From an uncultured Mycoplasmatota bacterium (GTDB taxonomy: Bacteria; Bacillota_I; Bacilli_A; RF39; UBA660), in assembly GCA_948467605.1 (NCBI GenBank), contig CAOKET010000015.1:1-38595 (forward strand): a DNA stretch of 38,595 nucleotides, given 5' to 3'. The notes below the pieces were generated by a model. That model had not been told where the DNA came from and did not search any database. It saw only the letters and a program-made list of their open reading frames with translations. Both the position numbers and the translations under genes were made by a program. This document shows, piece after piece, positions 4,289-27,571 of this stretch; within the stretch, counting starts at the first letter, position 1; the number at the start of each line of letters is the position of its first letter.

Positions 4289-4327
4289 ATGGTTTTTTAT
4301 GTGTTATTGTTATGCTTGGGAGGTATA

Positions 4328-4927
4328 ATGAGAGATATATTTATAAACTATTCAATTAGTAAAATAAAAAAACAATATTCTAATTATGATGATGATAAAA
4401 TTGCAGAAATAAAATACGGATTAGAAGGTTTATATATTCTAATAACAAAAAGTATTATTATTTTTGGAATTGCATTTATTCTTAACATAGTTAAAGAATT
4501 ATTACTGTTATTATTATTTTTCAATTTTCTAAGATTTACTGGATTTGGGCTGCATGCGAAAAGTTCTCTTAAATGTTTAGGAAGTTCTACACTTGTTTTT
4601 ATAGGGATTGCTATAGTAAGTAAATATTTTATTATATCAATCCCAATAAAATTAGTAGTATCTTTATTCTGTGTGGCTAATTTTTTAATCTTTGCACCTG
4701 CTGATACAGAAAAGAGACCACTAATAAATAAAAGGAAACGGTATATATATAAGTTTGTCACTACCGCAATTTCTATTATTTATACCATCCTTTTACTTTT
4801 GATCAAAACTAATTTTATAACGAATATTATTATGTTCTCTATGGTTATAGAAGGAGTTTTGATTAACCCCCTGTCATATCGATTATTAGGCCTTAGATAT
4901 GATAATTACAAATATTATAATCATTAG
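4328..4927 (+). CDS. agrB: AgrB-type accessory gene regulator protease
   Basis: Integral membrane cysteine endopeptidase that cuts the AgrD propeptide at its C-terminal side and closes the thiolactone ring. The catalytic pair is visible as H76 and C83 (GLHAKSSLKC), seven residues apart as in Staphylococcus aureus AgrB (H77/C84), within a 199-aa protein of about six hydrophobic segments. The start at 4328 is chosen because GGGAGG stands just upstream and MRDIF matches the family; an upstream in-frame ATG at 4289 overlaps the presumed promoter. agrD follows 17 bases downstream. Confidence 0.92.
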   Translation: MRDIFINYSISKIKKQYSNYDDDKIAEIKYGLEGLYILITKSIIIFGIAFILNIVKELLLLLLFFNFLRFTGFGLHAKSSLKCLGSSTLVFIGIAIVSKYFIISIPIKLVVSLFCVANFLIFAPADTEKRPLINKRKRYIYKFVTTAISIIYTILLLLIKTNFITNIIMFSMVIEGVLINPLSYRLLGLRYDNYKYYNH

Positions 4928-4944
4928 ATAAGGAGGAATAAAAA

Positions 4945-5076
4945 ATGGGATTTTTTAGTGGAATGATTGGTAAAGTACTTTCAACTTTAGGTTCTACATT
5001 TGCAGCTACTGGAGCTCAAGGATGCTCTTGGTTATGGATGGATGAACCAGAAATGCCAAAGTCTATGATTAAATAA
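4945..5076 (+). CDS. agrD: AgrD-type autoinducing peptide precursor (43 aa)
   Basis: Small propeptide that AgrB should process into a cyclic quorum-sensing signal. Ribosome binding site AGGAGG lies 9 bases upstream. The N-terminal half is an amphipathic membrane-binding leader beginning MGFFSGMIGK. Then comes the core with a single Cys27 in AQGCSWLWM, and the acidic, proline-containing C-terminal recognition tail DEPEMPKSMIK, which matches the DEVEVPKEL type of S. aureus AgrD. If cleavage falls before DEPE, as in S. aureus, the ring is CSWLWM, six residues instead of the usual five. A terminator follows at once. Confidence 0.92.
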   Translation: MGFFSGMIGKVLSTLGSTFAATGAQGCSWLWMDEPEMPKSMIK

Positions 5077-5103
5077 AAACTATTGTAAAAATAGTTTTTT
5101 TCT
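5076..5103 (+). terminator. Terminator of agrBD
   Basis: AAAACTATT pairs with AATAGTTTT around GTAAA and runs into a T tract. It starts at the agrD stop codon. Confidence 0.85.
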
Positions 5104-5113
5104 TTAGAAATAT

Positions 5114-5143
5114 AAAAGTTCTTTCGTAATTGAAAGAACTTTT
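5114..5143. terminator. Bidirectional terminator between agrBD and agrC
   Basis: Perfect 12-bp stem AAAAGTTCTTTC/GAAAGAACTTTT with a 6-base loop. A/T tracts on both sides let it stop the minus-strand agrAC transcript and back up the plus-strand agrBD terminator. The agrC stop codon is inside the stem. Confidence 0.88.
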
Positions 5144-6437
5144 ATTCAGTTAAATCCAAAAATAGATGTTGTATATAATAGTCATTAATCATTTCTCTAT
5201 TTTGAAAAAATTGTGGATTAGAGTTTAATATATCCTTTACTAAGGATAATCCATAACCATGACCAGAACCCTTTGTTGTGTAACCCGCATTATTCATATT
5301 ATCTACTTCTAAATTACCTTTATATGTATTTGTTATAATAAATTCGAATATATCTCCATCTTTATATATTTCAATTCCAATACTTTTAGTTTCTGACTCC
5401 ATACATGCTTCTATTGCATTATCTACATAAACACCTATTATTTGACATAATTGTTTATAAAGTTTGGTATTAATATCTTGTAATTTAGAATCTTCTAAAC
5501 TTCTACTTATAGTTAAACTTACATCAATGTTATTTTCTCGCATTGCATTTACTTTATAAAATAGTAATCCTTTTAAACCACCAATTGGTATATTTTTTAA
5601 TTCACCTATCCATTTATAAGTTTTATCAGAATTATCATCAATTAACGAATCTATATATTCATGTGCTTTTTTATCTTTATCTGAAATCATACCTTTTATT
5701 GTTATTAGTTGATTTTTGTTTTCATGACGTCTGATTCTATCTTTTTCTATTATTTCTTCATACACTTTAACATATTCATTCATTTTTTGGTATTCTTTAG
5801 TTATATTTTGCTTATTTATCTTTTCTAACGATAATTTTATAAATATGCATATTATTAATACAATCATAGTAATATTTATGGCTATTTCATCTATATTTTT
5901 ATCAAGCACGTTATAATATAAGAATAAATAACTTATACATATCGCCACTAATGACTTTGATATATAATTTATTACTTTTATTTCACTATTATCAATTATT
6001 TTCTGGAAAATGGAAATTATATTATAAATTCTAGTAATTATTAAAATCATAATCATTACTACCATATCGCCAATTAATTTACGTTCTGTTGTACTTAGAG
6101 AACTAAGGTCTATGCTCAACATCTTAACCATTAATACTGTAACAATATCACATATAAATAAAACCAAGTAAAATAGTACTACACTTATTATACATTTATT
6201 CAATGGAACACCAAAAATTATATATATTGATACATTTAACAAAATAAATTGTATTATCATTGTTATAATGTTGTTTTGCATTTTATTTGAAAATATAACA
6301 ATTATTGACAGTCCTAAAACTACTATTATATTCTTAACATTTATTTCAATTTTTTTACATAATATTTTTGAAATAAAAAATATATTGACACAAGTTAACA
6401 AAATTGTCATTATTATTGATAAACTAGTTATTAACAT
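5142..6437 (-). CDS. agrC: AgrC-type sensor histidine kinase
   Basis: Receptor kinase for the cyclic peptide. The N-terminal half (about 1-205) has six or seven hydrophobic segments forming the sensor; the C-terminal half is an HPK10-type kinase. Visible motifs are phospho-acceptor H238 in RRHENKNQL, the N-box VYVDNAIEA (N340) and the G-box GHGYGLSLV (392-400). The 431-aa length is normal for AgrC. Its start overlaps the end of agrA by 14 bases, with GGGAG about 11 bases upstream, so expression is coupled. The kinase should phosphorylate the AgrA-like regulator when the peptide made by agrBD is bound. Confidence 0.93.
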   Translation of the reverse strand: MLITSLSIIMTILLTCVNIFFISKILCKKIEINVKNIIVVLGLSIIVIFSNKMQNNIITMIIQFILLNVSIYIIFGVPLNKCIISVVLFYLVLFICDIVTVLMVKMLSIDLSSLSTTERKLIGDMVVMIMILIITRIYNIISIFQKIIDNSEIKVINYISKSLVAICISYLFLYYNVLDKNIDEIAINITMIVLIICIFIKLSLEKINKQNITKEYQKMNEYVKVYEEIIEKDRIRRHENKNQLITIKGMISDKDKKAHEYIDSLIDDNSDKTYKWIGELKNIPIGGLKGLLFYKVNAMRENNIDVSLTISRSLEDSKLQDINTKLYKQLCQIIGVYVDNAIEACMESETKSIGIEIYKDGDIFEFIITNTYKGNLEVDNMNNAGYTTKGSGHGYGLSLVKDILNSNPQFFQNREMINDYYIQHLFLDLTE

Positions 6438-7143
6438 AATCTTTTAATCTCCCTTTCAGTTTATATGATTTTGATAAAAGGTTTATTTCATCCCCATTAT
6501 CAAATCTTATTATATTGTTACTGCTATCTATTTCTTTAACATTATCAATATTTACCATACAACTTCTATAGGTTTGGATAAAGTTATCGCTTATTAAATT
6601 CTGTATTTCTACAAAATTCTTATTTACTAAATATTCTTTGTTTATGGTTCTTATTATTACCTTCCTTTCACCTACTGCTTTAGCTATATAGTTTATATCA
6701 CTCATGTTTATCATGTACGACACTCTATTTGAGCTAAACTTTAGTGTTCTTCTTCCTTTAAATGTTCTAATTGCCAATTCTATATCCTCTTTTAATGTTT
6801 TTTCTAAGTTGAAGAATTTAGACACAAAGTCAAGTATTAATAATCTCTCTCTAAATGCTCTATCTGCTAATTCCTCATGCGCTGATACAATTATTATTGG
6901 ACTATCCAAGTCCTTTTTTCTTATTATATGCGCGATATCCAATCCCGATGTATTTTGTACTTCTATATCTAATACATAAATCTTAGGTCCATCTGAGTTT
7001 ACATCTTCCAAAAATCCCTGGTCATATAAGTAATGTCTTCTTATTGTGTAATCAATATCTATTGGCATCATAGCCCTGTTTATTATCTCACACATTCTTC
7101 TGTTTATCTCTTTGTTATCGTCACATATTATTATTTTAATCAT
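6424..7143 (-). CDS. agrA: AgrA-type LytTR response regulator
   Basis: Two-domain regulator. The receiver domain (about 1-125) has the acidic CDDN (7-10) and phospho-acceptor D59 in YVLDIE; the LytTR DNA-binding domain (about 135-235) has RSCMVNIDNV near its end, typical of the ten-strand fold. 239 aa, close to AgrA length. Ribosome binding site GGAGTG precedes the ATG. Its order (regulator first, kinase second) is reversed relative to the staphylococcal agr operon. By family knowledge it should activate agrBD, which lies on the opposite strand beyond agrC. Confidence 0.93.
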   Translation of the reverse strand: MIKIIICDDNKEINRRMCEIINRAMMPIDIDYTIRRHYLYDQGFLEDVNSDGPKIYVLDIEVQNTSGLDIAHIIRKKDLDSPIIIVSAHEELADRAFRERLLILDFVSKFFNLEKTLKEDIELAIRTFKGRRTLKFSSNRVSYMINMSDINYIAKAVGERKVIIRTINKEYLVNKNFVEIQNLISDNFIQTYRSCMVNIDNVKEIDSSNNIIRFDNGDEINLLSKSYKLKGRLKDYVNN

Positions 7144-20460: not shown

Positions 20461-21294
20461 TTATCTATTTTTGTTATATATTGAAATAATTTCTTTTATT
20501 TTTTTTGTCATTTTATCTTTGCCTGATGAAATTATTTTTCTCGGATCATATACTTCAGGATTACTATTTATATATTCCCTTACACCTTTAGACCACTCTA
20601 CTTGTAATAAAGTGTTTATATTAATTTTTGTTATTCCGCATTCTACTGCATGTTTGATATCTTCATCAGGTATTCCAGTTCCTCCATGTAAAACTAGTGG
20701 AAGTCCCGTTTTTTCACTTATTTCTTTTATTATATCATAATTTAAATTAGGTTTATTTTTGTATAATCCATGTACACTCCCTACCGCTGGTGCTAGAGCA
20801 TCTATTCCTGTGCTAGTTGAAAAGATTAGACAATCATCTACACTAGCATATGTAGGTTTGGTTTCATTATTTAAAATTGCTCCAACTTCTCCTTCAACAC
20901 TTACTTTATACTTTTGTGCATATTCAACCACTTTGCTTGTTACCGATATATTTTCATCTAATGATAATCTGGAGCCATCTATCATTACAGACGTAAATCC
21001 TGCATCAATTGCATCTTTACATGATTCATAACTTGAACCATGATCTAAATGTAGAACCACTGGTATTTTAATTTTTAAATCTATCATAAGTCCTACTACA
21101 ACATTTACTACTGTGTTATATCCACCCATATATTTTACTGTGCTTTCACTTACACCTAAAATAATTGGATAATTTAGTTCATTGCATGTTTCTAATATAT
21201 ATTTTGTCCATTCTAAGTTATTAATGTTTAGTTGTAAGATTGCATCTTTTTTAACTTTTGCTTCATTTAATAAGTCTATCATATTAACTAGCAT
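20461..21294 (-). CDS. fba: Class II fructose-bisphosphate aldolase
   Basis: Zn-dependent aldolase of glycolysis/gluconeogenesis (FBP to DHAP plus GAP). 277 aa with the Zn and catalytic motif VVLHLDHGSSYE (H85), EGEVGAI, the phosphate-binding GSVHG and LHGGTG. Start at 21294 has GGTGAT just upstream; the upstream ATG at 21312 has none. A tagatose-bisphosphate aldolase of the same family is a remote alternative. Linked to murA as in B. subtilis. Last core gene before the surface-module island. Confidence 0.94.
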   Translation of the reverse strand: MLVNMIDLLNEAKVKKDAILQLNINNLEWTKYILETCNELNYPIILGVSESTVKYMGGYNTVVNVVVGLMIDLKIKIPVVLHLDHGSSYESCKDAIDAGFTSVMIDGSRLSLDENISVTSKVVEYAQKYKVSVEGEVGAILNNETKPTYASVDDCLIFSTSTGIDALAPAVGSVHGLYKNKPNLNYDIIKEISEKTGLPLVLHGGTGIPDEDIKHAVECGITKININTLLQVEWSKGVREYINSNPEVYDPRKIISSGKDKMTKKIKEIISIYNKNR

Positions 21295-21340
21295 TTTATC
21301 ACCTATAAACATATTATCACATATTATTATTCAAAGCAAA

Positions 21341-21381: not shown

Positions 21382-22170
21382 TTATTTTCTTTTTGTGTAT
21401 GCTTTACCTTTTTCTTCTTTTCTACCAGCCATTAATGATAAGATTGTTGCACCGCTTAGTGCTAATGTTCCTACTATTGGTGCCATACTTTTTCCTGTTG
21501 GTGGATTTACTTCATAATCTTCTGGCATTGGTTCTGGTTTATCTTCTTTTGGTGGCTCTGGTATATCGTAACAATGATCATAGAAGCCTAAGTCTGTTTC
21601 TATTGCTATTACATATGTATCTTTCTTTTCTTCTCTCATTCTTTTTGATTCTACTATTATTTCATCTAGTTCAGTATACATATCTTCATCATATTTCTGA
21701 CTTTGTAATATTGAATATATTGATGTATTTCCTTTTTTTATTAATTGTCCACATACATCTTCACATACATTTGCAAATTGCATTGCTTCTGGATATGTCA
21801 TTAAGTCTGCAGTTCCGTCTAGTAATAATGTATCACATAATCCTGCCGCAATTGCTAAATTCTTTGTTTTTTCTTCTTTATTACTATTTTTTACTTTATC
21901 ACATGCTTCTTGTAATTCTAGTGGAAGTAAACTTTCTCCTGCTTTCTCTATTGCTTGTTCTGCTTCTATTACTAATCTATCTGCCTCTTCTTGTGTTATT
22001 TCTGCAGTAATTTTATTTCCTGTTATCATTGCATTTACTACATCTTGAGCTGTTACTTCTTGTTTTTCCGCTTTTGCTGCCATATTTCCTGTTATTAATA
22101 CTATTCCTGCTGCTACTACTGATGTTAGCGTTTTCTTTATATTTCTTAAATTTATTGTTAAATTTTTCAT
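21382..22170 (-). CDS. Surface protein B2 with NPPTG sortase-type anchor
   Basis: 262 aa, no family recognised. Signal peptide (about 1-34, ending AAKAEK), a helical domain with ITAEITQEEADRL, four conserved Cys (in GLCD, NVCEDVCG and DHCYD), a Pro/Glu-rich spacer (PEPPKEDKPEPMPEDYEV) and a C-terminal sorting signal: NPPTG (222-226), hydrophobic TM, RK-rich tail. By analogy with (S/N)PxTG sortase substrates it should be covalently wall-linked; no sortase is in the window. Paralogue of the gene at 24467. It follows gene A2 by 24 bases with the same AAGGGGGAAAATAAA ribosome binding site. Confidence 0.85.
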   Translation of the reverse strand: MKNLTINLRNIKKTLTSVVAAGIVLITGNMAAKAEKQEVTAQDVVNAMITGNKITAEITQEEADRLVIEAEQAIEKAGESLLPLELQEACDKVKNSNKEEKTKNLAIAAGLCDTLLLDGTADLMTYPEAMQFANVCEDVCGQLIKKGNTSIYSILQSQKYDEDMYTELDEIIVESKRMREEKKDTYVIAIETDLGFYDHCYDIPEPPKEDKPEPMPEDYEVNPPTGKSMAPIVGTLALSGATILSLMAGRKEEKGKAYTKRK

Positions 22171-22573
22171 TTTATTTTCCCCCTTTTTATTCTATTATTT
22201 TATTAATAATTTTCCTGATTCATATAAATCTTCTAAGTCTGTTGCTATCCATTGTAGATCTTCTCTTTCTTGTTGTACCTGTGGTTTATTATTTTCTACT
22301 ATTTTATCTAATGCTTCTTTTTGACTTATATTCATTCTATTTGCTACTATTAAATCTTCTCTTGCTTCATCTACTGATGATTCTATTCCTTTTTGAAATT
22401 CTTCAAATTTATCAATATGCTTTTCTTGCATTCCTGATATTAATGCTCCTGATATATTTGTGAATGCTACAAGTTTTTCTGTTGGTGTTAATTTTTCATA
22501 TTCTTTACTATTTACTAGTTTCATTACCTCTTTATACATTTTTTCATATGCTTTTCTTGCATTTTCTTCATGA
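21428..22573 (-). repeat. Tandem module copy 2: B2 and the 3' part of A2
   Basis: Aligns without net gap to 24507-25652 at a constant 3079-base offset. Identity is patchy. Blocks 21428-21668 and 22280-22573 differ from the other copy at about one position each by eye, 21981-22202 at several, and 21669-21980 strongly diverges. Confidence 0.85.
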
Positions 22574-23880
22574 GTCTTTTGCTTTTTCTCAAGTTTGCTA
22601 TTATATATTTCTGTAAACTTTTTATTATATATTTCTGCATATTTTTCTTGATATTCATTATCATTTTGTATATTTAATTTATCAAGTTCAATCATTGTTT
22701 CGTCTGATATTTGTTGATATTCTTCTGATGTTAAATCTTCTATCATTATTGGTGTTTGATTTAATTCGTATCTATAGTCTTCTGATATTTGAATTAACTT
22801 TTCTTGAAATTCTCTACATGATTCTGGCATTACTTCTGATGATATATAAAATCCATCTTCTATTCTTGGTATATATCCCATGTATCCTGCACTAAATGTT
22901 GCACAGTTTACACTTCCTATGCTTGATAATAATGAGTTTACTTGTGCATTTTTACTTGCTGTGATTTCTCCCAATCCATCATGTTCGATATAATCCGAAT
23001 GAATTTCTCTTACTGCATTTTCTATTAATTCATCATTTGCAGTTATTCCTGCATATTCTAAGTCATATTTTAATTGTTCTTTTTTATCTTTAAAATCTTC
23101 GATTTTTATTGGCTCTACTTTTATTACTGGTTCTTTTTCCTCTTTTATCTTTGTTGTAGTTGTTGTTTGTGGTTTTGTCTCTATCTTTGTAGTACTAACT
23201 GGTTTTGTTGCAACTGGTTTTTCTACTGGTGTTTTTTCTTGTGGTTCACTTGTTGTATTACTAGCTGGTTTTGTTACAACTATTTCAGTTGGTTCAGTAG
23301 CAACTGAGTTTGGTGTTGTATTTACTGTTGTTGATGGTGTTGCTTCTGCCGGTTTTTCTACTGGTTCTTTTATTTCTGTTGTTGTTGTAATTGTTGTTTG
23401 TGGTGTAGGTGCACTTGTTGATGGTGTTGATACTGTTATTCCTTCTTTTTCTATATCTTTTGTTTCTTCTTCCATACTTTCATCTGTTATTGATGTTGAA
23501 TTATCTTCTATTGATGAATTACTATTTTTACCAATAGAATAACTAATTATTCCTATAGATATTGCTCCTATTATACATGATGCAGTGACTATAGTTTTTT
23601 TATTTTTATCAATAAAGTTTAGTCCACCTTTTATTACTTTTCCAATTTTTTCTCTAACTAAAGTAAATTTAGACCCTTTTGCCAAATTTTCTGCCATTTC
23701 TTGTTCTTGTATTCTTCTTATTTCTTCATTTGCTCTTTCAATATCTTCTTCATGTAATACTCTTTTTGTTGCAGCTGATATTTCATCTGCAATTGCTTTT
23801 TTATCTTGTTCTGCTATAACTGGTGGTACAATTACACCAATTTTCATTTCTTCATCAGTTCTTAATACTTCATTTTCCAT
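22195..23880 (-). CDS. Surface module membrane protein A2 (Thr/Pro-rich stalk)
   Basis: 561 aa, family not recognised. Layout: charged cytoplasmic head (1-92), one TM helix (about 96-116), Thr/Pro-rich stalk (about 125-255, PT and TTT runs), then an outer domain of about 300 residues with two Cys (in GSVNCATFS and PESCREF) and a helical coiled C-terminus. Type II-like topology, so most of it is outside the cell. It shares near-identical blocks with A1 but differs in the head and a central segment. Ribosome binding site AAAAGGGGG; promoter and operator at 23962-23998. Paired with wall-anchored B2 in one operon, so the two may form a complex spanning membrane and wall. Confidence 0.85.
   Translation of the reverse strand: MENEVLRTDEEMKIGVIVPPVIAEQDKKAIADEISAATKRVLHEEDIERANEEIRRIQEQEMAENLAKGSKFTLVREKIGKVIKGGLNFIDKNKKTIVTASCIIGAISIGIISYSIGKNSNSSIEDNSTSITDESMEEETKDIEKEGITVSTPSTSAPTPQTTITTTTEIKEPVEKPAEATPSTTVNTTPNSVATEPTEIVVTKPASNTTSEPQEKTPVEKPVATKPVSTTKIETKPQTTTTTKIKEEKEPVIKVEPIKIEDFKDKKEQLKYDLEYAGITANDELIENAVREIHSDYIEHDGLGEITASKNAQVNSLLSSIGSVNCATFSAGYMGYIPRIEDGFYISSEVMPESCREFQEKLIQISEDYRYELNQTPIMIEDLTSEEYQQISDETMIELDKLNIQNDNEYQEKYAEIYNKKFTEIYNSKLEKKQKTHEENARKAYEKMYKEVMKLVNSKEYEKLTPTEKLVAFTNISGALISGMQEKHIDKFEEFQKGIESSVDEAREDLIVANRMNISQKEALDKIVENNKPQVQQEREDLQWIATDLEDLYESGKLLIK
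22789..22969 (-). repeat. Near-identical outer-domain block in A2
   Basis: 181 bases that look identical to 26027-26207, silent sites included, while flanking sequence diverges. It encodes the conserved Cys-containing core of the outer domain. Confidence 0.85.
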
Positions 23881-23961
23881 TTTATTTTCCCCCTTTTAAT
23901 CAAAGTAAACTATTAAATAATTTACTAACAATTTAATAACTTTTTAATGTTATTTTTAATT

Positions 23962-23998
23962 GTTATGATATAATAACATATTTTTATATATTTGTCAA
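23962..23998 (-). promoter_or_regulatory. Promoter and operator of module copy 2
   Basis: Minus strand TTGACA (23993-23998), 17 bases, TATTAT (23970-23975). An imperfect inverted repeat, plus strand GTTATGATATAATAAC (23962-23977), covers the -10 box. The same arrangement precedes copy 1. The roughly 80-base leader holds small hairpins (AATAAC/GTTATT; AGTAAA/TTTACT). Confidence 0.75.
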
Positions 23999-24054
23999 CA
24001 TTTTTCTATTGCTACTATTATTATATTTTTATTAAACTTTTATTATACATAATC

Positions 24055-24088
24055 AAAAAAAATCAGAAATTTAGATTTTTATCTGATT
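24055..24088 (-). terminator. Terminator of module copy 1
   Basis: Minus strand AATCAGA/TCTGATT stem with a 14-base loop and eight T. It overlaps the last codons of broken gene C. Confidence 0.7.
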
Positions 24089-24426
24089 CTCTTAATTGCT
24101 TCATTGCCTTCATCAATCTTTCTTGATAATTCTATTATGAAAAACATTGCTACATCTTCATTCATTATTCTATTTTCATTGTACTCATTAACTTTTGCAT
24201 ATATTTCTTTTAAATCTTTAACTTCACTTTTAGTGATAGTACTTGCCAATTCTTTTGCCTTTTTAAGAAATTATTCCTTTTGTAGTTCTACATTTATACC
24301 ATCTAAAGCACTTTTCATTAGTATATTATATTCATTTGATAAAGTCATAATTGATTTTAAAAAATCTTCTTTATCTTTAGGTTCAAGTTTCTTCCCTGAA
24401 GGAAATATATCTTTAAAATTTCTCAT
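24079..24426 (-). pseudogene. Third module gene C, interrupted by an in-frame TAA
   Basis: A single reading frame of 115 codons with ATG at 24426 and final TAA at 24079-24081, broken by TAA at codon 52 (24271-24273). The part before begins MRNFKDIFPSGKKLEPKDKE; the part after continues in the same frame as a charged helix (KAKELASTITKSEVKDLKEI). A good ribosome binding site (AAAAGGGG) of the same type as the neighbouring module genes precedes the ATG. Both halves look like coding sequence, so a recent nonsense mutation (from CAA, GAA or AAA) or a sequencing error is likely. No signal peptide; cytoplasmic helical protein, function unknown. Module copy 2 has no counterpart. Confidence 0.68.
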
Positions 24427-24466
24427 AAAATTTTTCCCCTTTTAATCTTTTACATTATTGAATATA

Positions 24467-25249
24467 TTATCTTCTTTTTGTGTATGCTTTACCTTTTCTT
24501 CTACTCGCCATTAATGATAAGATTGCTGCACCGCTTAGTGCTAATGTTCCTACTATTGGTGCCATACTTTTTCCTGTTGGTGGATTTACTTCATAATCTT
24601 CTGGCATTGGTTCTGGTTTATCTTCTTTTGGTGGCTCTGGTATATCGTAACAATGATCATAGAAGCCTAAGTCTGTTTCTATTGCTATTACATATGTATC
24701 TTTCTTTTCTTCTCTCATTCTTTTTGATTCTACTATTATTTCATCTAAGAAAGTTTCTTGATCTTCTCCATATCTTTCACTTTTTATTACTGAATATATT
24801 GATGTGTTTCCTTTTTTTATTAATTGTCCACATACATCTTCGCATACATTTGCAAATTGCATTGCTTCTGGATATGTCATTAATGTTGATGTTCCATCTT
24901 CTAATAAAATATCACACATCATTGCTGTATATACTAAAGCATCTGATTTTTCTTCACCTTTTAAATTTTTTGTGCTTTCATATAATTCTTTTAACTCTAC
25001 TGGCAATAAACTTGCACCTTCTTGCAATACTTCTTCTTCTGCTTCTTTTATTAATTTGTCTGCCTCTTCTTGTGTTATTTCTGCAGTTATTTTATTTCCT
25101 GTTTTCATTGCATTTACTACATCTTCCGCTGTTACTTCTTGTTTTTCTGCTTTTGCTGTCATATTTCCTGTTATTAATACTATTCCTGCTGCTACTACTG
25201 ATGTTAGTGTTTTCCTTATATTTCTTAAATTTATTTTTAAGTTTTTCAT
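24467..25249 (-). CDS. Surface protein B1 with NPPTG sortase-type anchor
   Basis: 260 aa, paralogue of B2 with the same plan: signal peptide (about 1-34), conserved TAEDVVNAMKTGNKITAEI segment, Cys in NVCEDVCG and DHCYD, Pro/Glu-rich spacer and NPPTG (222-226) followed by a TM and an RRKGKAYTKRR tail. The first 70 residues and the last 90 match B2 closely, while residues of about 70-130 differ strongly. 24 bases after A1, sharing its promoter; gene C follows 40 bases downstream. Function unknown; wall attachment is inferred from the sorting signal. Confidence 0.85.
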   Translation of the reverse strand: MKNLKINLRNIRKTLTSVVAAGIVLITGNMTAKAEKQEVTAEDVVNAMKTGNKITAEITQEEADKLIKEAEEEVLQEGASLLPVELKELYESTKNLKGEEKSDALVYTAMMCDILLEDGTSTLMTYPEAMQFANVCEDVCGQLIKKGNTSIYSVIKSERYGEDQETFLDEIIVESKRMREEKKDTYVIAIETDLGFYDHCYDIPEPPKEDKPEPMPEDYEVNPPTGKSMAPIVGTLALSGAAILSLMASRRKGKAYTKRR

Positions 25250-25652
25250 TTTATTTTCCCCCTTTTTATTCTATTATTTTATTAATACTTTTCCCTCTTC
25301 TTTTAATTCTTTTATTCTCTCTAATAAGTCTTGTAAATCTTCTCTTTCTTGTTTTACTTGTGGTTTATTATTTTCTACTATTTTATCTAATGCTTCTTTT
25401 TGACTTATATTCATTCTATTTGCTACTATTAAATCTTCTCTTGCTTCATCTACTGATGATTCTATTCCTTTTTGAAATTCTTCAAATTTATCAATATGCT
25501 TTTCTTGCATTCCTGATATTAATGCTCCTGATATATTTGTGAATGCTACAAGTTTTTCTGTTGGTGTTAATTTTTCATATTCTTTACTATTTACTAGTTT
25601 CATTACTTCTTTATACATTTTTTCATATGCTTTTCTTGCATTTTCTTCATGA
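24507..25652 (-). repeat. Tandem module copy 1: B1 and the 3' part of A1
   Basis: Partner of 21428-22573 at a constant 3079-base offset, with the same mosaic of near-identical and diverged blocks. Confidence 0.85.
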
Positions 25653-26953
25653 ATTTTTTGTTTTTCATTTGTTTTTTTGCTTAGTATTGCTTCTTTTTTT
25701 TCATCATATAATTGATTATATCTTTCACTATATTTTTCCTTATCTATTTCAGGCATATATTCTAATGTAAGTTGGTATTCTATTTCATTTAGTATTTGTT
25801 GTTCTATTTCTGGTGTTAAACTTCCTGTTACTTTTGAGATTTTTTCTTCATATAGTTGACTTACTCTTTGATTATATTCAGTGTTATTATCGTTATTATA
25901 TTCTCCTCCGAACTCTTTTGCAAGTTCATCCTCAACTTCTCTTTCTATTTGTTGTGCTTCTGCTGATGTTAAATCTTCTATCATTACTGGTGTTTGATTT
26001 AATTCATATCTATAATTTTCTGATACTTGAATTAACTTTTCTTGAAATTCTCTACATGATTCTGGCATTACTTCTGATGATATATAAAATCCATCTTCTA
26101 TTCTTGGTATATATCCCATGTATCCTGCACTAAATGTTGCACAGTTTACACTTCCTATGCTTGATAATAATGAGTTTACTTGTGCATTTTTACTTGCTGT
26201 GATTTCTTCTAATCCATCATGTTCTATACAATCTGAATGGATTTCTCTTACTGCATTTTCTATTAATTCATCACTTATAGGTGCACTTATATATCCTAAA
26301 TCATTTAAATATTCTATATCATATCTTAGTAACTCGCATTTTTCATTAAAATCTTTTATTTTTATTGGTTCTACTTTTATTACTGGTTCTTTTTCCTCTT
26401 TTATCTTTGTTGCTGTTGTTGTTTGTGGTTTTGTCTCTATCTTTGTAGTACTAACTGATTTTGTCTCTTGTAGTGTTGCTGTTGTTGATGGTGTTACTTC
26501 TATTGGTTTTTCTACTGGTTCTTTTATTTCTGTTGTTGATGTAGTTGTTGTTTGTGGTGTAGGTGCACTTGTTGATGATATTTGTGTTTTTTCTGTTGTT
26601 GATGGTGTAGTTACTGTTATTCCTTCTTTTTCTATATTTTTTATATCTTCTTCCATACTTTCATCTGTTATTGATGGTGTACTAGTTTCTATTTCTTTAT
26701 CTTTATTCGAATTTGAACAAGCAGTACTCATGGCAATACTTATACCTACTATACCAATTGATATACCTCTTACTAGTTTTTTCTTATGTACATTTATAAT
26801 ACTTTCACTTATTTTTTTGATTTTTGTACCAATTTGTTCCATAACTAATACAAATTTAGATTTCTCTTTATTTTGCATTTCTTGCAATTTTTGTTGCATC
26901 TCTTTTTCTTTTCTTCTCTCATCTAATAATAATTCTTGTAAATCTTTTTTCAT
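25274..26953 (-). CDS. Surface module membrane protein A1 (Thr/Pro-rich stalk)
   Basis: 559 aa, paralogue of A2. Short Lys/Glu/Gln-rich cytoplasmic head (1-60), one TM (about 62-79, ending MSTAC), Thr/Ser/Pro-rich stalk (about 90-200) and an outer domain with conserved Cys in GSVNCATFS and PESCREF. The central segment (from SAEAQQIEREVEDEL on) is unrelated in detail to that of A2 and longer. The head is not homologous to that of A2 by eye. The STAC after the TM resembles a lipobox but lies too far in (Cys79) for a normal lipoprotein signal. Ribosome binding site AAAAGGGGG; own promoter and operator. Confidence 0.85.
   Translation of the reverse strand: MKKDLQELLLDERRKEKEMQQKLQEMQNKEKSKFVLVMEQIGTKIKKISESIINVHKKKLVRGISIGIVGISIAMSTACSNSNKDKEIETSTPSITDESMEEDIKNIEKEGITVTTPSTTEKTQISSTSAPTPQTTTTSTTEIKEPVEKPIEVTPSTTATLQETKSVSTTKIETKPQTTTATKIKEEKEPVIKVEPIKIKDFNEKCELLRYDIEYLNDLGYISAPISDELIENAVREIHSDCIEHDGLEEITASKNAQVNSLLSSIGSVNCATFSAGYMGYIPRIEDGFYISSEVMPESCREFQEKLIQVSENYRYELNQTPVMIEDLTSAEAQQIEREVEDELAKEFGGEYNNDNNTEYNQRVSQLYEEKISKVTGSLTPEIEQQILNEIEYQLTLEYMPEIDKEKYSERYNQLYDEKKEAILSKKTNEKQKIHEENARKAYEKMYKEVMKLVNSKEYEKLTPTEKLVAFTNISGALISGMQEKHIDKFEEFQKGIESSVDEAREDLIVANRMNISQKEALDKIVENNKPQVKQEREDLQDLLERIKELKEEGKVLIK
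26027..26207 (-). repeat. Near-identical outer-domain block in A1
   Basis: Partner of 22789-22969 at an offset of 3238 bases; no differences seen by eye over 181 bases. Confidence 0.85.
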
Positions 26954-27007
26954 AAAATTTTCCCCCTTTTAAAAATAAATTATTAAAAATTTACCAATAA
27001 TTTAATT

Positions 27008-27044
27008 GTTACGATATAATAACATAATTCATATTTATTGTCAA
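27008..27044 (-). promoter_or_regulatory. Promoter and operator of module copy 1
   Basis: Minus strand TTGACA (27039-27044), 17 bases, TATTAT (27016-27021), with plus-strand GTTACGATATAATAAC (27008-27023) over the -10 box. It differs from the copy 2 operator at one base. Confidence 0.75.
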
Positions 27045-27046
27045 TA

Positions 27047-27571
27047 CTAAAATATTTTACTTATAAGATTTGAAAAAAATGATTCGTATTTTACTTCTTC
27101 ATCTTCTTCTGCTTCTATTATACATAGTGGTGGAAATAATACACACCACCAATTTTTACCCTTTCCTTCTCCTAATGTTATTAACAATGATTCATATTCT
27201 CCCTCTTCATATACTTTTCCATTATATTCTTTTTCGGGGAAATAATTATATCCATAATTTATTTTATATCCTAGTTTATAGTTTTCTTTTTCTAGTGTTT
27301 CTTCAATTAAATTATCTAGTTTTGTAAAATTATTTGCTATTATCTGTCTTGTTTCCATTATATTTTTTGCATCTTTTAGTAATAGTGATAATTCTTTTTG
27401 AATTTGATTTTTTACTTTTATTTTTATATCTTGATCATATTCTGAGTCACTATTTGCTACTACTCTTAATCTTATTGCTTCTTCTGGTATTGTATTATTT
27501 GTTTCTTGACCTTTTACTATATTTATTGTAATAAAGCATATTGCTATTCCTAAAATTATCTTTTTAATCAT
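27047..27571 (-). CDS. spoIIR: Sporulation protein SpoIIR
   Basis: Signal protein made in the forespore and secreted across the septum, where it triggers SpoIIGA to process pro-sigma-E in the mother cell. 174 aa: signal peptide (1-21) and the conserved RVVANSDSEYDQDIK, FPEKEYNGKVYEEGEYE and GKNWWCVLFPPLC motifs. C-terminal acidic tail then FFSNLISKIF. In operon order behind prfA-prmC, as in B. subtilis, but separated by a terminator-like hairpin that contains its ribosome binding site. A forespore promoter could lie at the end of prmC; I could not identify it. Confidence 0.95.
   Translation of the reverse strand: MIKKIILGIAICFITINIVKGQETNNTIPEEAIRLRVVANSDSEYDQDIKIKVKNQIQKELSLLLKDAKNIMETRQIIANNFTKLDNLIEETLEKENYKLGYKINYGYNYFPEKEYNGKVYEEGEYESLLITLGEGKGKNWWCVLFPPLCIIEAEEDEEVKYESFFSNLISKIF

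Follow-up and report, generated by a model that had tools for sequence, protein, structure and literature searches.

The interval between spoIIR and fba in the window (the whole 38,595-nt stretch of DNA analyzed) contains five genes on the minus strand, which ORF reading placed in the transcription order A1, B1, C, A2 and B2. These include two tandem A-B units: (i) unit 1, with A1 (positions 25274–26953; 559 aa; ORF, TM/stalk scan and alignment with A2) and B1 (24467–25249; 260 aa; ORF), and (ii) unit 2, with A2 (22195–23880; 561 aa; ORF, alignment with A1 and comparison of hairpin repeats) and B2 (21382–22170; 262 aa; ORF of the same build as B1). The earlier note on this DNA had placed such a pair of units at this site, and the four ORFs were confirmed, as were the flanking genes, which match PF09551 (spoIIR; 27047–27571) and PF01116 (fba; 20461–21312) in Pfam. 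The genes of the units show operon-type spacing, and this arrangement suggests that A and B may act as partners.

The two top promoter-like sites of the region lie before A1 (27016–27044, minus strand; 11 of 12 consensus positions) and before A2 (23970–23998, minus strand). Both have the form TTGACA-N17-TATTAT with TG preceding the −10 box, i.e. they are extended −10 promoters, and neither appeared in the earlier note. Since one such site precedes each unit, unit 2 has its own promoter. Nucleotide alignment and inspection revealed that the duplicated stretch starts near the promoter, which was duplicated along with the unit, and ends just past the B stop codon. Between the units lies C (24079–24426, minus strand), a previously overlooked small helical gene with no family match above cut-off. 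It consists of a 51-aa ORF (24271–24426) followed by an in-frame TAA and 63 more open codons in the same frame. C is probably an interrupted gene; it looks decayed, though an assembly error could give the same picture.

The host, a very AT-rich bacterium of the spore-forming type, has a genome (GC content 24%, GC3 approximately 14%) that is available as a draft assembly with 91% completeness. The sequence GTTTATCTAAGTTTTGTCAAATCATAAAAAATGTGATATTATAATCA is present at six contig ends (C16, C28, C32, C33, C35 and C41), which points to a multicopy element at which the assembly breaks. Elsewhere in the window (4289–7143) there is an agr-type quorum-sensing cluster, composed of genes for AgrB (4289–4927, plus strand; PF04647), an AgrD-like peptide of 43 aa (MGFFSGMIGKVLSTLGSTFAATGAQGCSWLWMDEPEMPKSMIK; 4945–5076, plus strand), a histidine kinase (5142–6437, minus strand) and a LytTR response regulator (6424–7143, minus strand).

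Protein A1 comprises a basic, coiled cytoplasmic head (residues 1 to ~58), a TM segment (~60–80), a Thr/Pro stalk (~90–195) and a helical C-terminal outer region. In A2 the N-terminus is ~37 residues longer, the stalk is also longer, and the hairpin repeat is present once instead of twice. The TM/stalk scan identified a single hydrophobic segment in each protein (at residue 60 in A1 and residue 94 in A2), and Thr, Pro and Ser make up 60–62% of the densest 40 residues of the stalks. Alignment revealed two cysteines common to both outer regions (271 and 300 of A1, corresponding to 326 and 355 of A2). The description of A as a stalked, single-TM protein with a Cys-containing outer region therefore holds. 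At the end of its TM segment, 79 residues from the start, A1 carries a lipobox-like MSTAC (residues 75–79; window ~26717–26731); A2 has no cysteine at this position.

The heads of A1 and A2 had been considered unrelated, as if the same outer sensor were connected to different internal outputs. This was not borne out: the heads align from residue 2 of A1 and residue 39 of A2 onward (SKFVLVMEQIG/SKFTLVREKIG), with a local score of 55 compared to 32.4±5.6 for shuffled sequences (none of 2000 shuffles scored as high). The likeness runs on from the heads through the membrane segment, and an independent genome search matched residues 19–193 of A1 to A2 at 51% identity. The heads are short (~60–95 residues), and no cytoplasmic output or signalling domain was detected in them with Pfam or NCBIfam. 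A transmembrane sensor, in which one type of outer domain is joined to differing cytoplasmic outputs, would fit the order of cytoplasmic head, single TM segment and outer domain. However, the homology of the heads removes the main argument for such a role, and no regulator gene was seen among the ORFs of the A-B units. We consider a sensor very improbable; since the heads are homologous and have no recognizable signalling domain, a divergent anchor is the simpler reading.

The outer region of A contains a helical hairpin repeat of ~50 residues (LT..E..QQI..E...eL...(loop)..Y..ry.qlYeeK), with two copies in A1 and one in A2. The doubling in A1 had been missed previously. The first A1 copy (beginning LTSAEAQQIEREVEDEL; 25820–25972, minus strand) matches the second (beginning LTPEIEQQILNEIEYQL; 25670–25819, minus strand) with a score of 69, compared to 25.9±4.9 for shuffles, and matches the single A2 hairpin (beginning LTSEEYQQISDETMIEL; 22585–22734, minus strand) with a score of 73, compared to 29.0±5.6. 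The match between the second A1 copy and the A2 hairpin is weak, its score being reached by 5 of 2000 shuffles. The A2 hairpin is the most confident part (pLDDT blocks of 82–92) of an AlphaFold model of the A outer region that is poor as a whole.

B1 and B2 are 81% identical. As read from the sequence, their N-terminus has the basic start, hydrophobic stretch and AKA-E site of a signal peptide, while the C-terminus (NPPTGKSMAPIVGTLALSGAAILSLMASRRKGKAYTKRR) has the pentapeptide NPPTG, hydrophobic segment and basic (KR) tail of a sorting signal. Between the two, B1 contains a helical domain with four cysteines. The sorting-type motif is located at 21490–21510 in B2 (V-N-P-P-T-G-K) and at 24569–24589 in B1 (both minus strand, identified by sequence). 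These features agree with the proposal that B is a smaller, wall-sorted protein. The architecture of A and B thus points to a location at the cell surface.

A genome scan identified only three credible sorting-signal proteins: B1, B2 and a protein with the motif LPKTS. The host genome encodes one PF04203 sortase, with His, Cys and Arg at the expected places by inspection. Its gene lies directly downstream of that for the SpaA-domain protein ending in LPKTS, and the two (C23:19952–22308) likely form a dedicated sortase-substrate pair. The sole sortase adjoins an LPKTS substrate, whereas the motif of B is NPPTG. According to a published survey, most species of the order RF39 are predicted to retain a peptidoglycan wall, and srtA/B has been lost in RFN20 and ML615J-28 (PMC10868615). 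The gene content and 24% GC of the host genome would agree with a place near RF39.

Nucleotide alignment of the two units revealed a mosaic, in which perfectly identical tracts stand beside blocks of 50–70% identity. The tracts (all on the minus strand) comprise (i) 248 nt in the C-terminal domain of A (22280–22527, identical to 25359–25606), (ii) 221 nt in the C-terminal third of B (21448–21668, identical to 24527–24747), and (iii) 181 nt in the outer domain of A, including the two common cysteines (22789–22969, identical to 26027–26207). They contain neither synonymous nor non-synonymous differences, while dN is lower than dS in some of the divergent blocks and higher in others. The longest run of identical codons was matched in none of 20,000 permutations for either the A or the B pair and is thus beyond chance. 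The test restricted to synonymous differences was weaker (691 of 20,000 permutations, 0.035, for A; 211 of 20,000, 0.011, for B). Partial gene conversion would be the simplest account of this mosaic; given the weaker synonymous-only result and a GC3 of ~14%, uneven constraint could mimic it. Since the identical tracts are longer than typical assembly k-mers, the draft assembly could also have joined the halves of A1 and A2 in the wrong phase. No set of silent donor copies of A or B was found in the host genome besides the two tandem units.

The earlier assignment of A and B to an unknown family was borne out by comparison with known families, which gave no curated match. Every match in Pfam and NCBIfam was below the curated cut-off, those in PHROGs and PADLOC were weak and none was convincing, and sequence searches of PDB yielded nothing below E 0.05. 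Two matches, to GltJ (Pfam/NCBIfam search) and PD-T4-6 (PADLOC), were discarded, as they cover mainly the low-complexity stalk. Profile comparison revealed no homology between A and B. AlphaFold models built from two-row alignments had a mean pLDDT of ~55 (55.5) for the A outer region and 39 for B, and a single Foldseek run with the poor A model gave no match below E 0.2, only generic helical ones. An adhesion reading of these proteins is thus drawn from their architecture.

The distribution of A and B was examined in overlapping samples of family, order and class genomes. A whole-genome search detected A2 in 1 of 291 family genomes, namely the host itself. The A outer profile, searched against 370 order genomes, likewise found only the host, apart from matches (E 0.004–0.009) at noise level. 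B was confined to the host among 296 class genomes at E 1e-3; in 385 order genomes, nine further matches were obtained up to E 0.01. Five of these were attributed to chance, as they sit in a MurF-type ligase frame (G194), in a nucleotidyltransferase-like frame (G229), or within or near unrelated frames (G305, G164 and G419). Another (G158), in a secreted frame that resembles B around the signal peptide only, was also taken as chance. The remaining three (G038, G106 and G163), like the A outer matches, had bit scores of 14–18, i.e. at noise level. Neither A nor B was found when 84,980 species genomes and the viral contigs were scanned with peptide seeds; such scans need short exact peptide matches and so reach close relatives only. 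Searches with tblastn gave no match for A2 in phages or for B2 in plasmids. The earlier note had regarded A found widely without B as evidence against the proposed module. No such separation was seen, nor any second co-occurrence, neither protein having been found in the other genomes searched. The genus is represented in the sample by this genome alone, and the closest SpoIIR among the family genomes sampled shares only 61% identity; closer relatives may therefore lie outside the sample.

This distribution bears on whether A and B could form a structural envelope module, in which membrane-anchored A and wall-anchored B bind one another and tether the layers or organize the septum, with no ligand outside the cell. 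The pairing, within one operon, of a membrane-anchored and a wall-anchored protein, a stalk presumably long enough to cross the wall, and the many wall and shape genes in the window (MreB, M23 peptidases and PBP) would suit such a module. However, a tether that the cell needs should be conserved, while A and B are absent from the other genomes searched, and diverged copies with unequal repeat number better fit a variable surface use. A purely structural role is thus considered unlikely. The pair may still bridge membrane and wall, as the earlier note proposed.

The slot downstream of spoIIR was read in 40 relatives (L142–L161 and L195–L214), one of which was at a contig edge, leaving 39 readable. 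A gene for an MntP-like protein (PF02659, checked for the L142 copy) follows spoIIR in 34 of these, usually ahead of fba or murA, and none of the 39 has A or B in the slot. Approximately 15 relatives carry further, unrelated slot genes, such as a GerA-type germination operon or genes for flippase-like and pilin-like proteins (descriptions other than GerA and MntP were read from sequence). The host genome has a distant MntP-family gene at C11:43308–43874, so the MntP-like gene of the slot was not lost outright; the distant gene is probably a paralogue.

Since the slot tolerates lineage-specific cargo, the neighboring spoIIR is a poor guide to function. The position of the units directly downstream of this gene could still reflect a role of the pair in spore formation, but a TTGACA/TATTAT promoter of the vegetative type precedes each unit, the slot of relatives holds MntP-like and miscellaneous genes, and, of 172 family genomes, the 148 in which SpoIIR was found were not seen to carry A or B. 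A sporulation-linked pair therefore appears highly unlikely. Somewhat more credible, though still doubtful, is that A and B are young or recently acquired orphan cargo that does little for the cell and was retained by chance or carried by a mobile element. Their restriction to a single genome among those searched, the unrelated inserts found in the slot of relatives and the decayed appearance of C are all consistent with this. Against it, none of the four A and B frames is interrupted, their promoters and ribosome-binding leaders are good, no integrase or transposase turned up in the window genes tested, and the searches of phages (A2), plasmids (B2) and viral contigs gave no match.

The reading that we favor, although tentatively, is that of a lineage-specific, tandemly duplicated cell-surface operon, probably involved in ligand binding or adhesion, with partly homogenized copies; judging from this class of protein, a role in binding or adhesion is the most likely one. 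Each unit would be transcribed from its own strong vegetative-type promoter. A would be anchored in the membrane, with a Thr/Pro stalk that spans the wall and bears the helical outer region. B would be a helical, exported protein, either linked to the wall by a sortase or held via its C-terminal hydrophobic segment. The two may act together in binding a ligand or adhering at the surface. Recombination (gene conversion) would partly homogenize the copies, leaving differences in other blocks and in the number of hairpins, the outcome being two related but non-identical surface forms. A more specific version, in which membrane-stalked, hairpin-repeat A and wall-bound B bind to one another or to the same ligand and are diversified through recombination of the tandem copies and through repeat number, seems unlikely. 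As families that appear new and confined to one lineage, A and B would represent a surface system so far missing from the annotation of an uncultured group with a poorly known cell surface. If the mosaic reflects active recombination, they would offer a compact case in which a reduced, low-GC genome diversifies its surface proteins. The present evidence describes an orphan pair of ordinary architecture and putative function.

The families of A and B appear to be new and orphan; their design, a stalked and a wall-anchored protein duplicated side by side, is familiar. Within the same genome, another stalked protein is encoded at C6:64479–65435 (L063), where the gene runs off the contig end within the stalk repeats, so that the outer part is missing. 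It shares with A a short membrane anchor, a long stalk (Thr/Pro/Glu) and a TTGACA-type promoter, but it has a lipoprotein-type start (LSGCSKP) and no detectable homology beyond stalk composition. B resembles LPXTG-type sortase-anchored proteins (PF04203 substrates) in its signal peptide, sorting-type pentapeptide, hydrophobic segment and basic tail, and in the presence of one genomic sortase; it differs in its NPPTG motif, in the LPKTS substrate beside that sortase and in a body with no family match. A further comparison is offered by the tandem, recombining surface-protein genes of Mollicutes, for example MgPa/MG192 of Mycoplasma genitalium (PMC2169797). There, as is proposed for A and B, related surface genes swap sequence and show block-wise differences, in a small, low-GC genome. 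Unlike that system, A and B occur as only two tandem copies with no silent donor set in the genome, are known from one genome and have no sequence match to it.
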